A stretch of 38,277 nucleotides of DNA. Origin: Candidatus Magasanikbacteria bacterium RIFOXYD2_FULL_41_14. GTDB lineage: Bacteria; Patescibacteriota; Patescibacteriia; Magasanikbacterales; GWA2-37-8. The notes under the pieces were generated by a model, which was not told the DNA's origin, ran no database searches, and saw only the letters and a program-made list of their open reading frames with translations. The position numbers and the translations under genes were made by a program. The DNA is taken from contig MFRE01000010.1 of assembly GCA_001784475.1 (NCBI GenBank), forward strand, positions 1 to 38,277, written 5' to 3'. Of this stretch, positions 33,135 through 38,045 are shown one piece after another (the stretch's first letter is position 1; every line of letters starts with the position of its first letter).

Positions 33135-33827
33135 TTATGTAAAATCAATAAATTTAACTTTTTTAGCTTGCCAAATATCTTTCTTAATTAATCGCTCGCC
33201 GTATGTTCCTCCGATTGGTACATTTGCTTCAGAAATTTTAACAGACGAGTCAGGGAATACTTCTTCAACAAAAGCTATGTGACCCGTACTGCAAGTAGGT
33301 GTTGGTGGAAAAGACATAGCGCAATGACACTTCGGTTCATCTAAAATTTTGTACATCTTATTTTTTTCAAATATTACAGGCCATCTTCCACCATCTCGTG
33401 GTCGGTCTGACGGCCACTTAATAGTTACCCCGAGGATAATTTTTATACGATATTGAACATATTCGGTGCAATTTAGAAAATCTTTACGAGCTCCGAGCCC
33501 AAAAATATCTCCGATTATCTCTCGAAGTTTTCTTGTATTTTCATTATCAAAGAGGTATTTAAATCCAGCAACAAGATTTGGCAAATCAGGGCTGTTAACA
33601 ACTGGCTGGACGGAAGGAGACGGGGGAGAAAGAACCGGTTGAATTGAAGTTACAAAATCTCCGCGTACCCAACCTTCAACGCCATTGAGACTAACTTTGT
33701 ACCACGGATTCTCCTCGACCTGAATCACTTGTTGCCCTTTATTTACTTTTTGAATAATATTTGTATCAATAATATCCGGCGATTTACGAAAACGAACATT
33801 ATCCTCCTTGATGAATAACATTGTCAT
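33135..33827 (-). CDS. SH3b plus CHAP-domain protein
   Basis: The 230-residue protein starts with a bacterial SH3 domain (about 1-62; VRFRKSP, GWVRGDFV). A proline-rich linker (about 66-84) leads to a CHAP-type cysteine peptidase/amidase domain (about 90-230). Candidate catalytic residues are C120 (FLNCTEYVQ), H183 (STGHIAFVEEV) and E200 (KISEANVP). CHAP enzymes cut peptidoglycan stem peptides or cross-bridges. No signal peptide is seen, so it would need lysis, a holin or another route to reach the wall, or it has a cytosolic target. It is the outermost gene inside the inverted repeats, on the same strand as the CBASS-like pair and 61 bases after it. It may be an effector or a passenger. Confidence 0.75.
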   Translation of the reverse strand: MTMLFIKEDNVRFRKSPDIIDTNIIQKVNKGQQVIQVEENPWYKVSLNGVEGWVRGDFVTSIQPVLSPPSPSVQPVVNSPDLPNLVAGFKYLFDNENTRKLREIIGDIFGLGARKDFLNCTEYVQYRIKIILGVTIKWPSDRPRDGGRWPVIFEKNKMYKILDEPKCHCAMSFPPTPTCSTGHIAFVEEVFPDSSVKISEANVPIGGTYGERLIKKDIWQAKKVKFIDFT

Positions 33828-34657: not shown

Positions 34658-35212
34658 CTATTTTTCGTAACCACTAGTAATCATCGCTGTTACGATATCA
34701 TTGAGTAGCCTGCCTCGGAAATTTGTTACCGCAGTATTTCTTTTGTCATCCAATTCTTTCATCTGTCCATCTGGAATCCGACCCTTGTCATAAGGTGCGT
34801 AGACAACCAACGCACATTTATCTTTTTTCATATTAAAAATCTTGGCTATGTCATCTGCCCAATCGTGCCAATACACAAGATACAGGGACGCCTTTTCGGC
34901 TTTCCCCAAATCGCCACTATGGGTAATTTCAAAGATATTGTCTGCATCAAACAGTCCTGAATCACAAAGCAAACTTTTCAGACTAGCGACATTATCACTC
35001 TTTGCAAAGATAGCAATCTTTCTTCTTGCCAGGCCATTACCCAAGCGGAGCACGGCAGGAAGTATGCCTTTAATCCAAAGAATAATTGTATAAAAAATTC
35101 CTAAAATCAAGACGAGGGATTCAATTGCCCCGACTACGGCCAATATCCCCCATGCTGTTTTCATGTATGGGTCCATAAAATTCGACAAGTTAATTAGTAA
35201 ATATGTTAACAT
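34658..35212 (-). CDS. Membrane-anchored putative CBASS effector
   Basis: The 184-residue protein has one long or two short membrane helices (about 20-48) followed by a soluble alpha/beta domain of about 120 residues. The domain starts RRKIAIFAKSDN, continues with LYLVYWHDWADD and CALVVYAPYDKGRIP, and ends NFRGRLLNDIVTAMITSGYEK. The strand and helix order suggests a Rossmann- or TIR-like fold, but I cannot name the family and no catalytic residue is evident. Its position directly upstream of, and coupled to, a CD-NTase fits an effector that binds the cyclic nucleotide and perturbs the membrane. Its promoter overlaps that of the divergent LexA-methyltransferase. Confidence 0.55.
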   Translation of the reverse strand: MLTYLLINLSNFMDPYMKTAWGILAVVGAIESLVLILGIFYTIILWIKGILPAVLRLGNGLARRKIAIFAKSDNVASLKSLLCDSGLFDADNIFEITHSGDLGKAEKASLYLVYWHDWADDIAKIFNMKKDKCALVVYAPYDKGRIPDGQMKELDDKRNTAVTNFRGRLLNDIVTAMITSGYEK

Positions 35213-35241
35213 TTGACATTTCGAATTAGTTTCGATACACT
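35213..35241 (+). promoter_or_regulatory. Promoter of the LexA-methyltransferase gene
   Basis: TTGACA (35213-35218), 17 bases, then TACACT (35236-35241). The C-box-like motif at 35238-35247 covers the end of the -10 box and the start site. Confidence 0.65.
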
Positions 35242-35247
35242 TATAGT
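35238..35247 (+). promoter_or_regulatory. C-box-like operator between divergent defence genes
   Basis: CACTTATAGT contains the dyad ACT-TAT-AGT. The same ten bases occur, in the same orientation to the gene, upstream of the C-protein gene (38101-38110). Here they overlap the promoters of both the LexA-methyltransferase (plus) and the CBASS-like pair (minus). Confidence 0.6.
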
Positions 35248-35272
35248 ATACACCTAACTAAACAACTGTCAA
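35245..35272 (-). promoter_or_regulatory. Promoter of the effector / CD-NTase pair
   Basis: On the minus strand, TTGACA (35267-35272), 16 bases, then TATACT (35245-35250). The promoter faces and overlaps the one driving the methyltransferase gene, so RNA polymerase could not occupy both at once. Confidence 0.65.
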
Positions 35273-35273
35273 T

Positions 35274-36836
35274 ATGCTAACCAAACGACAAAAGGAAATA
35301 TTGGACTTTGTCCAATATAGCCAAAAAAAACGAGGAATCAGTCCGTCACTAAAAGAGATTGGTAAACACTCTGGCCTCTCCTCTTTATCAACAATTCACT
35401 ATCATATAAAATCTCTTCAAGAAAAAGGGTACTTGTATAAACAAGAAAATCGACCGCGGGCAATAAGTGTTCGTAATGATGAGCCGTTGATACAAGTTCC
35501 TTTGTTAGGAATAATTGCCGCCGGGCAACCAATTGAGGCAATCGCCGAACGAACAGAAAATATCGCGGTACCAAAAACAAAAATCCAGTCTGGGAAAAGT
35601 TTTTTTGCACTAAGGGTCTCTGGCCAAAGTATGGCTGACGAAAATATTAACGACGGCGATATCGTGCTTGTGCGCCAACAAACATACGCCACTAATGGCG
35701 ATAAAATTGTTGCTCTGATTAATGAGAGTGAGGCTACACTAAAAACCTTTTTTAAAGAACGTGGACAAATTCGGCTTCAACCAGCAAACAAAAATTATAA
35801 TCCTATTATAATAAAAAATGGTGAACATGAATTTTCGATTCAAGGCGTAGTGGTTGATGTAATACAGAATGAGATTGTTGATTCAAAAATTCAAGAAAAA
35901 TTTGAAGTTGAAATACCAACTAAAAAGGTGGATAAGTTACCGCTTAACCATTTTATTTGTGGCGACGCAATTGAAGAACTTAAAAAACTCCCCAGCCATT
36001 CGGTTGATTTAATTATTGCTGACCCACCTTATTGGAAAGTGATAAATGAAAAATGGGATTATCAGTGGAGAACGGAGAATGACTATATTTATTGGTGCAG
36101 ACAATGGATCAAAGAGGTGGCTAGGGTGGTGAAGAAAACCGGATGTTTTTATCTATTTGGATACTTCCGAACGCTTGCCTACCTTTTACCAGATATAGAA
36201 AAAGAAAACCTTTCACTACGACAACAGATTATTATTAACAAAGGCATGAAATCTGTTAGCGGAAGAGCGACAAAAAATTATAAAATGTTCCCGAATGTTA
36301 CAGAAAGTGTTTTGTTTTTTAATTACAACAATCAACCCGAAATAAAAAAATTTCTTTTAGAACAGAACAAAAAAAGGGGTTTTACATCAAAAGAAATCAA
36401 CGAAAAAATGGAAGTAAAGAGTAATGGAGGTGGGCTGTGGTCTCTCTATACAGGGGATAATATTCTGGCTCAAATACCGACCAAAGAACAATGGGAAAAA
36501 TTAGAAAAAATATTTGGGTTCAAGAAACCGTATTCCGAAGTTAATTTTAATTTTAACGCACAGATGGGTTTCACAGATGTTTGGGATGATATTAATTTCT
36601 ATCGAGAAGAGCGTTTCCACCCGACACAAAAACCTCTCCAATTAATAGAGAGGATTATTAAAGCAAGCAGTAACGAGGGCGACATTGTTCTAGATCCTTT
36701 TGTAGGGGCTGGCTCTACAGCTCTGGCCTGTTTAAATCTAAAACGAAATTACATCGGTATAGATATTGATAAGGAGTTTATCAATATCTCGCAAGAGCGA
36801 ATCAAGAATTTGAAAAATACACCAAAACTATTTTAA
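35274..36836 (+). CDS. LexA repressor fused to a beta-class DNA methyltransferase
   Basis: The 520-residue protein joins two complete parts. Residues 1-200 are LexA: winged helix (LTKRQKEILDF, SPSLKEIG, RAISV), the Ala83-Gly84 cleavage site in IIAAGQP, Ser119 in SGQSM and Lys157 in ATLKTFF. All self-cleavage residues are present. After a linker (about 200-225), residues 226-520 are an adenine- or cytosine-N4-type methyltransferase with motif IV DPPY (250-253), then FHPTQKP (448-454) and motif I DPFVGAGS (474-481). This is the beta-class order. The fusion could repress through its HTH, methylate sites of the partner endonuclease, and release the methyltransferase from the HTH on RecA-stimulated cleavage. 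No internal start for a free methyltransferase is obvious. Its stop codon overlaps that of the endonuclease gene by 2 bases. Confidence 0.92.
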   Translation: MLTKRQKEILDFVQYSQKKRGISPSLKEIGKHSGLSSLSTIHYHIKSLQEKGYLYKQENRPRAISVRNDEPLIQVPLLGIIAAGQPIEAIAERTENIAVPKTKIQSGKSFFALRVSGQSMADENINDGDIVLVRQQTYATNGDKIVALINESEATLKTFFKERGQIRLQPANKNYNPIIIKNGEHEFSIQGVVVDVIQNEIVDSKIQEKFEVEIPTKKVDKLPLNHFICGDAIEELKKLPSHSVDLIIADPPYWKVINEKWDYQWRTENDYIYWCRQWIKEVARVVKKTGCFYLFGYFRTLAYLLPDIEKENLSLRQQIIINKGMKSVSGRATKNYKMFPNVTESVLFFNYNNQPEIKKFLLEQNKKRGFTSKEINEKMEVKSNGGGLWSLYTGDNILAQIPTKEQWEKLEKIFGFKKPYSEVNFNFNAQMGFTDVWDDINFYREERFHPTQKPLQLIERIIKASSNEGDIVLDPFVGAGSTALACLNLKRNYIGIDIDKEFINISQERIKNLKNTPKLF

Positions 36837-37837
36837 TGCGTTCTCCTCGCATATTTTGATTTGGCAGTAGAAATTTTATCGGTATCGCGCAAAGGAAGAT
36901 AGGAACGTAAGGTCTCATCAACGCCTCCCAAAAATTCACGCTTCTCAGCAATTGAGAATTTACTTAGTTTTGTTAGATTCTTGTAAAAAGCTGGCTTCAT
37001 CATCTTTTTAATTTCCCACGGCTTCGCCTTTTTAAAAATAAGAGCGATCTCCGGATCTTTTAGAATCTCAACTGGCATAACAACCGACTGTATGCCAGAC
37101 CTGTCTTCGTCCGGTTTGATATAATGTAAAATTTTTATTTTTGGAGAAGAATTAGCGTTTTGAACAATACAGGTAAAAGTCGGGATAGGGTTGCATATGT
37201 AGAACTGGTATTGGTATGGCCAAAAATTTTTAGGCGCGGGTGTTTTGGCTAAATTTTTATTCTTATGGCCGAGATAAATTTTATAATAATAATTTATCAT
37301 TATTTCCCCAAAGCGCGCATTTCTTTTATTTTCTGGCCAAATTTCGAAAACTTGAAAGCGTAGCGTACTAAAGTCTCCATCATCAAAATTAGGATAATCT
37401 CCTAGTACTAGAAGAACGCGCTTTACCCCATGAATGAGCGTATTTAATTCCTCTTCGTTTCTAATGCTAAACAACCATTTAGAATCATTCTTACGTTCAA
37501 TCTCATCAGAACCACAATTCGAACATTTATTTTCTAATCGAGCAACTGGGCTATCACATTTTTTACATATATCGAGCTGATCAATACGCGAACAAGATTT
37601 TACTTCCGAACCATCAATAAGATCATTGCCTCTTGCCCCAGTTCTCTCGCCTTCCATACCAGCAATAAGTGACGCAAGATGCTGGCCCGGATAACCAATC
37701 TTTATGTTTGGTGTCTGCTTAGTTATTGCCGACCATTTAATAGCACTTATTCTCGGCTGAAGCACCATCTCGCCAAGAAGCTGGTTGATTTGGTTAATAT
37801 TATCAACAATGGTAATAAATTTTTTATTTGGTTGCAT
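36833..37837 (-). CDS. MamI-like type II restriction endonuclease
   Basis: The 334-residue protein resembles the MamI endonuclease family (from memory of the family pattern). Near the N-terminus are YPGQHLASLIAG and TGARGNDLIDGSEVKSCSR, whose D...EVK residues (about D75, E78, K80) fit a PD-(D/E)xK nuclease site. A four-cysteine zinc ribbon (CKKC...CSNC, about 91-108) follows, then PKNFWPYQYQFYICNPIPTF and a basic C-terminus. MamI cuts GATNNNNATC, but specificity here is not known. The ATG at 37837 comes one base after the C-gene stop (TAG-T-ATG), indicating coupling, while a TTG three codons earlier is less likely. It is convergent with the methyltransferase gene. Confidence 0.85.
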   Translation of the reverse strand: MQPNKKFITIVDNINQINQLLGEMVLQPRISAIKWSAITKQTPNIKIGYPGQHLASLIAGMEGERTGARGNDLIDGSEVKSCSRIDQLDICKKCDSPVARLENKCSNCGSDEIERKNDSKWLFSIRNEEELNTLIHGVKRVLLVLGDYPNFDDGDFSTLRFQVFEIWPENKRNARFGEIMINYYYKIYLGHKNKNLAKTPAPKNFWPYQYQFYICNPIPTFTCIVQNANSSPKIKILHYIKPDEDRSGIQSVVMPVEILKDPEIALIFKKAKPWEIKKMMKPAFYKNLTKLSKFSIAEKREFLGGVDETLRSYLPLRDTDKISTAKSKYARRTH

Positions 37838-37838
37838 A

Positions 37839-38045
37839 CTAATCAAATAACGCCTTGGGCTGTAACCCTAATGCTTTGGCAATTTTTTCAATATTTTTAA
37901 TAGAAAGATTTCTTGAACCACGCTCAATATCACTAATATATGTTCGGTGGAGACCTGATTTAAAAGCCAAGTCTTCTTGGGAAAGACTTTTTTGTTTACG
38001 TAATTCACGCAATCTATTGCCAAATTTTGTTTGTATGTCGGGCAT
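37839..38045 (-). CDS. Controller (C) protein of the restriction-modification system
   Basis: The 68-residue XRE-type helix-turn-helix protein has the pattern FGNRLRELRKQKSLSQEDLAFKSG (split), then LHRTYISDIERGSRN and a final LGLQPKALF. Its size and sequence match C proteins, which delay endonuclease expression until host DNA is methylated. It is read just before, and coupled to, the endonuclease gene. An operator of the C-box type sits upstream and the same core recurs before the methyltransferase gene. C proteins usually activate their own promoter at low levels and repress it at high levels. Confidence 0.9.
   Translation of the reverse strand: MPDIQTKFGNRLRELRKQKSLSQEDLAFKSGLHRTYISDIERGSRNLSIKNIEKIAKALGLQPKALFD

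Follow-up and report, generated by a model that had tools for sequence, protein, structure and literature searches.

A complete LexA fused to restriction-modification methyltransferases in Patescibacteria, with a putative operator in its own promoter

Restriction-modification (R-M) systems must hold methylation ahead of cutting, and how a shortfall is sensed is an open question. In the regulatory methyltransferases of the EcoRII, SsoII and Ecl18kI systems, a simple helix-turn-helix (HTH) domain is fused to an m5C methyltransferase. It is established that such HTH-fused methyltransferases repress their own genes (PMC3874152; PMC12707154), and unbalanced type II R-M systems have been reported to induce SOS (PMC3874152). 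A 2025 review of R-M systems treats the fused regulatory methyltransferases without using the word LexA (PMC12707154). LexA is also unmentioned in the paper on CapK/CapS, regulators that are located between R-M and CBASS, which names CapW/BrxR and CapH+CapP as earlier families (PMC13373217). No prior report of a LexA-methyltransferase fusion was found in the literature searched, which left out the study of Sanchez-Osuna et al. 2017 on the LexA damage network of Patescibacteria.

Here we describe such a fusion in a stretch of 38,277 nt (the window, bases 1–38277 of contig 10, MFRE01000010.1) from a 1.1-Mb patescibacterial genome assembly that is 96% complete. The gene is a single ATG-to-TAA frame without interruption (35274–36836, plus strand; 520 aa). 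Like M.EcoRII, M.SsoII and M.Ecl18kI, its product carries an N-terminal DNA-binding domain on a methyltransferase, and a putative operator lies over its own promoter, which implies autorepression. Unlike in these enzymes, the regulator is a complete LexA with its self-cleavage domain, the partners are m6A/m4C as well as m5C methyltransferases, and the operator is of the LexA direct-repeat type, with none seen at the restriction endonuclease (REase) promoter. In place of a simple HTH on an m5C enzyme, the window thus encodes LexA and S24 domains on an N6/N4 enzyme; a C5 methylase is present in 16 of 77 relatives. With the SOS LexA of the direct-repeat type (Alphaproteobacteria; Patescibacteria LexA), the protein shares the HTH, the S24 fold, the Ala-Gly bond, the Ser/Lys dyad, the TTC repeat and the 11-bp period, but it differs in the C-terminal methyltransferase, in the R-M locus and in the place of the operator, which is found upstream of its own gene and not at a repair regulon. 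A predicted release of defence genes upon DNA damage would be common to the fusion and to CapW/BrxR (WYL), CapH+CapP (protease plus HTH) and CapK+CapS (kinase plus STAS-wHTH). The folds are unrelated, however, the Pfam domains of the fusion being LexA, S24 and methyltransferase, and in the fusion a single chain would combine sensing, repression and methylation. Finally, as in C-protein controlled R-M systems, a small XRE protein is encoded beside the REase gene, whereas the methyltransferase would be under its own LexA-type control.

The fused gene comprises the following features:

35274–35489, plus strand: LexA winged-HTH DNA-binding domain (residues 1–72); PF01726 (LexA_DNA_bind) at residues 2–63; AlphaFold2 helices 4–20, 26–33 and 38–50; residues 36 and 43 covary with operator bases
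35490–35870, plus strand: LexA S24 self-cleavage domain (residues 73–199); PF00717 (Peptidase_S24) at residues 76–194; TIGR00498 at residues 2–199
35520–35525, plus strand: codons of the scissile bond Ala83-Gly84, from the sequence
35628–35630, plus strand: codon of Ser119, from the sequence
35742–35744, plus strand: codon of Lys157, from the sequence
35871–35945, plus strand: flexible linker between LexA and the methyltransferase; pLDDT below 50 at residues 202–214
35946–36836, plus strand: N6/N4 DNA methyltransferase domain; PF01555 (N6_N4_Mtase) at residues 244–508, 158.5 bits; PADLOC MTase_II; Foldseek

The NCBIfam model TIGR00498 (lexA) matched over its full length with 183.9 bits, above its cut-off of 110.95, and the methyltransferase motifs are all present (IV, DPPY, residues 250–253; X, HPTQKP, 449–454; I, DPFVGAGS, 474–481, of the DPFxGxG type). 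The AlphaFold monomer (mean pLDDT 78) resolves into an HTH, an S24 and a methyltransferase domain, with a disordered linker and low confidence near the cleavage loop (residues 84–93). The closest PDB matches are T. maritima LexA and M.BceJIV-type methyltransferases; Foldseek returned the methyltransferases M.BceJIV, CcrM and MboIIA as well as LexA, including the LexA-RecA filament structure 8trg. These results bear out a preliminary description of this DNA, which had read in it one 520-residue frame for a full methyltransferase and a full LexA, the latter complete with cleavage site, Ser119 and Lys157. That two frames had been fused by a sequencing or assembly error, as was considered there, or by chance, is excluded because about 80 homologous fusions exist in many assemblies and low dN/dS in both halves indicates purifying selection. 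The protein is likely, jointly with the wider explanation given below, to be the modification enzyme of a type II R-M system with LexA as its N-terminal regulatory domain.

The following genes flank the fused gene:

36833–37846, minus strand: MamI-family REase, tail-to-tail with the methyltransferase with a 4-nt overlap; PF09567, 127 bits
37839–38045, minus strand: small HTH protein of the XRE family that probably acts as controller (C) protein for the REase operon; PF01381; homologue in 28 fusion loci, window included
34658–35212, minus strand: CBASS-type 1TM effector, divergent from the fusion, operator region in common; PDLC00664, 230.7 bits
33889–34674, minus strand: CD-NTase-like oligonucleotide cyclase; PDLC00803, 262 bits; PF18144 at its cut-off

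A 1TM effector of this type is also divergent from the fused gene in L163, where both the methyltransferase and the REase differ from those of the window. A small protein with bacterial SH3 and CHAP (amidase) domains (Pfam; 33135–33827, minus strand) adjoins the CBASS-like pair. Just past the window, a large gene resembles serine recombinases (contig 10, 38581–40122, plus strand; assigned by eye from the N-terminus), and similar genes flank five other loci (L154, L155, L161, L061 and L064). Therefore the module is probably mobile, and the R-M/CBASS block would be a mobile island.

The region between the fused gene and the divergent CBASS-like genes contains two promoters and a direct repeat:

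35213–35241, plus strand: promoter of the fused gene, -35 TTGACA at 35213–35218 and -10 TACACT at 35236–35241, from the sequence; the operator fills the spacer in most homologues
35220–35235, plus strand: putative LexA operator, a TTCGA-N6-TTCGA direct repeat between the -35 and the -10 of the fused gene; from repeat enrichment, placement and helix covariation
35245–35272, minus strand: divergent promoter into the CBASS-like genes, -35 TTGACA at 35272–35267 and -10 TATACT at 35250–35245, from the sequence

The putative operator of the window, TTCGAATTAGTTTCGA (16 nt), lies between TTGACA and TACACT and just downstream of the -10 of the divergent promoter, which is also visible in L074, L154 and L163. 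Exact repeats of the form TTCxy-N6-TTCxy were found upstream of 53 of the 80 fusions and of 16 of the 32 unfused LexA genes; of 761 further ORFs in these loci, 5 had such a repeat. With looser matching, the repeat was on the coding strand in 65 fusions and on the opposite strand in nine, and six had no recognisable repeat. Its usual place is the spacer between TTGAxT and TATAAT-like hexamers, usually with one operator per locus, at the promoter of the LexA-methyltransferase gene; none was found at the REase/XRE promoter. The repeat covaries with the recognition helix: residue 43 is F, H or Y with A at operator base 5 (41 of 41), E, Q or D with G (38 of 39) and K with C (2 of 2), and residue 36 is A or V with T at base 4 (24 of 24). 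The association is strong in count yet not statistically independent, because the rows are related and contrasts on well-supported branches are few: for residue 43 all three agree, and for residue 36 three of about four agree and none is opposed, too few for significance. The LexA boxes of Alphaproteobacteria, GTTC-N7-GTTC, have an 11-bp period, which matches that of TTCxy-N6-TTCxy. TTC direct-repeat operators may already be described in the work of Sanchez-Osuna et al. on Patescibacteria LexA (Environ Microbiol 19:3465). New here is the placement of the repeat in the -35/-10 spacer of the fused gene and its covariation with the recognition helix, which yields a residue-to-base recognition table for LexA that is usable for operator prediction. 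Judged from sequence, the operator at the gene's own promoter is probably recognised by the HTH of the fusion itself.

A search for the architecture across genomes, as proposed in the preliminary description, recovered 80 fusions among 112 LexA loci, mostly from Patescibacteria. These loci came from a scan of genome contigs and from fetched regions, and since the set was seeded with fused LexAs, a frequency can be read only from a sample of 380 genomes drawn evenly from the phylum. In this sample, at least 20 genomes (5%), this one included, had a fusion-length frame among the matches listed, the best LexA matches lying in frames of about 490–630 aa. A LexA homologue 77% identical to that of the window and many more came from Patescibacteria MAGs, and near relatives had further fusions with other methyltransferases. 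Host labels outside the main group were Omnitrophota (L101, L102 and L110), Elusimicrobia (L080) and Legionellaceae (L094); L080 and L094 each rest on one MAG contig, which may be misbinned. The preliminary description knew of no such fusion with the LexA protease domain, and the architecture is indeed absent from the 2025 review, but it is a widespread module of Patescibacteria and not a one-off.

The methyltransferase partners are diverse. In a Pfam scan of 77 fusions, all 77 contained both LexA domains, together with N6_N4_Mtase in 54, a C5 methylase in 16 and Eco57I in three; grouped at E 1e-5, the methyltransferase halves make up seven clusters, and at 1e-40 they make up 18. The neighbours on the downstream side fall into at least 37 clusters and are convergent in 68 of 77 loci, mostly with overlapping stops. 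The REase families among the neighbours were MvaI/BcnI (11), MamI (5), Bsp6I (5), TaqI (4), BglII (3), BsaWI (3) and NgoFVII (2), with AlwI, EcoRV, ScaI, HindIII and others seen once each. The REase family follows the fused methyltransferase; for example, the MamI pairing of the window recurs in L074, L154, L155 and L161. In a human gut locus (L003, 655–2824), a MamI-type system has a separate small XRE-like HTH gene upstream of the methyltransferase, a non-LexA version of the arrangement.

Unfused states were also observed. A LexA gene lies directly upstream of a methyltransferase and TdeIII in L065, and L108 and L113 likewise have LexA upstream of a methyltransferase gene. Stand-alone LexA genes are divergent from type III systems in L067 (5310–7977) and L068 (5250–7505), where LexA may control a type III system without being fused to it. 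A stand-alone LexA gene in L173 (5188–7929) is divergent from an R-M or other large gene. In the LexA tree, the fused LexAs and nine unfused ones group apart from other stand-alone LexAs (SH-aLRT 84, not strong), and the fused/unfused label changes eight times, versus 28 in shuffles. For one unfused member (L104), the contig end cuts the frame and the tail matches a methyltransferase. The simplest reading of these sequences, short of proof of a single origin, is that one old LexA lineage was repeatedly joined to new R-M systems. Among 5000 plasmid matches listed, none covered 80% of the fusion protein. Of the 1411 phage records matched, only Marinitoga phage MPV1 did so, and it was rejected because it has two separate genes, for a CI-like repressor and a methyltransferase. 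One viral contig (L176) carries a fusion with its REase.

Every one of the 80 fusions retains Ala83-Gly84, Ser119 and Lys157. In close pairs, dN/dS was 0.02–0.13 for the HTH, 0.00–0.14 for S24 and 0.02–0.07 for the methyltransferase, with one pair of unlike methyltransferases set aside. The invariance of the cleavage residues and the low dN/dS argue, short of proof, that self-cleavage is in use, although the conservation of Ser and Lys could partly reflect folding. The fusion is very probably an autorepressing, self-cleavable methyltransferase. From LexA biochemistry, a cut at 83/84 would free the HTH from the S24-methyltransferase part.

The explanation that we consider likely is an autorepressing LexA-methyltransferase in which DNA breaks, by RecA-stimulated cleavage, lead to more methyltransferase and also release the divergent defence genes. 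The LexA HTH would bind the direct-repeat operator inside its own promoter and keep its own synthesis low, as in M.EcoRII and M.Ecl18kI. The trigger would be broken host DNA, resulting from cutting of under-methylated sites by the partner REase, from establishment in a new host or from phage attack. RecA filaments would then stimulate self-cleavage at Ala83-Gly84, as we infer for the fusion from its LexA part; the HTH would be released, and the S24-methyltransferase remainder should still be able to methylate. The freed promoter would raise methyltransferase synthesis and restore protection, a self-correcting, homeostatic loop that senses R-M self-damage. With LexA in the repressor position this loop would be closed, from cutting via RecA filaments and cleavage to more methyltransferase. 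As the operator overlaps with the point where divergent transcription begins, immediately beyond the -10, the bound protein should repress in both directions, and the same event should free the divergent defence genes, here CBASS-like. The preliminary description had suggested that damage derepresses the island and changes host-site protection. The operator common to the fused and the divergent gene agrees with the former, but with none at the REase/XRE promoter, expression of the methyltransferase and of the divergent genes should go up after damage, and that of the REase should not be directly affected. The latter can be given a direction: because the methyltransferase stays joined to the S24 domain after the predicted cut, protection should rise via derepression and not fall.

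RecA was not found in this 96% complete assembly. Of 57 relatives, 52 had a RecA match above the cut-off, one of them a member of the same genus. A gap in the assembly therefore most likely explains the absence, with true loss as the alternative. A full RecA match was absent from three of the six fusion genomes of the window's family (G000, which is the present genome, G002, with a sub-threshold match only, and G007), compared with two of 51 other relatives. RecA loss as a general trait of fusion genomes was rejected, as RecA was present in 18 of 18 phylum-wide fusion genomes. In RecA-less hosts, the fusion would act as a plain autorepressor.

It is rather unlikely that the fusion is such a plain autorepressor throughout, using LexA for operator binding and dimerising only, in the manner of M.EcoRII, with self-cleavage unused or incidental. 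M.EcoRII and M.Ecl18kI provide the precedent, operator placement and covariation require DNA binding only, and the own genome is among those in which RecA was not detected; a binding-only domain, however, would be expected to lose some of the cleavage residues that are invariant across fusions spanning the phylum, and S24 and the methyltransferase have similarly low dN/dS. Far less credible, to the point of being very improbable, is that the fusion is the SOS repressor of the host, with the methyltransferase as a passenger. It is the sole LexA match in the assembly and exceeds the cut-off of the lexA equivalog model, but the exact operator has a single copy in the 1.1-Mb genome, in the promoter of the fused gene itself, although degenerate copies may exist elsewhere. 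Moreover, many fusion genomes have a second LexA match, and the fused LexAs group apart from most stand-alone LexAs, albeit with weak support.

Cleavage might instead serve mainly to derepress divergent abortive-infection genes, CBASS here and other defences elsewhere, with induction of the methyltransferase secondary. A divergent neighbour is present in 67 of the 80 fusions, in 46 of them within 160 bp, and the 42 divergent neighbours scanned included matches to CBASS effectors, a cyclase, ThsB TIR, patatin, HerA, LmuA-type proteins and Vsr; CapK/CapS are likewise placed between R-M and CBASS. We hold this reading to be unlikely. Against it, no defence assignment was obtained for many of the divergent neighbours, some fusions lack a divergent gene nearby, and distal control ORFs also give some PADLOC matches, several of them to helicase-type models. 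The apparent enrichment of defence genes is suggestive. Among individual neighbours, a Vsr mismatch endonuclease is divergent from the LexA-methyltransferase genes in L123 and L171, and that in L166 (1685–2347, minus strand) resembles, by eye, a second LexA-type protein.

If the autorepressing, damage-cleaved methyltransferase is the correct explanation, the damage sensor on the methyltransferase provides direct feedback from self-cutting to protection within one protein. The recurrence of the fusion and of its own-promoter site suggests that Patescibacteria tie self-protection to DNA damage, and a large regulatory module would be added to a group often called defence-poor. The chances seem to us evenly balanced that the full picture holds, in which a single polypeptide uses LexA self-cleavage to sense damage, keeps its own gene and divergent abortive-defence genes repressed and methylates the genome, R-M self-cutting raises protection, and one LexA lineage is combined in a modular way with many unrelated methyltransferase/REase pairs across Patescibacteria, as a further class of damage-responsive immune control.

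A second element was observed at many of these promoters. None was recognisable in the window, but a DnaA-box-like sequence, TGTGGATAA or TGGGGATAA, is present upstream of 53 of the 80 fused genes (for example, in L057, L079 and L148), mostly 19–26 nt upstream of the operator, versus 9 of 761 control ORFs on the same strand. This element possibly links methyltransferase expression to replication initiation.
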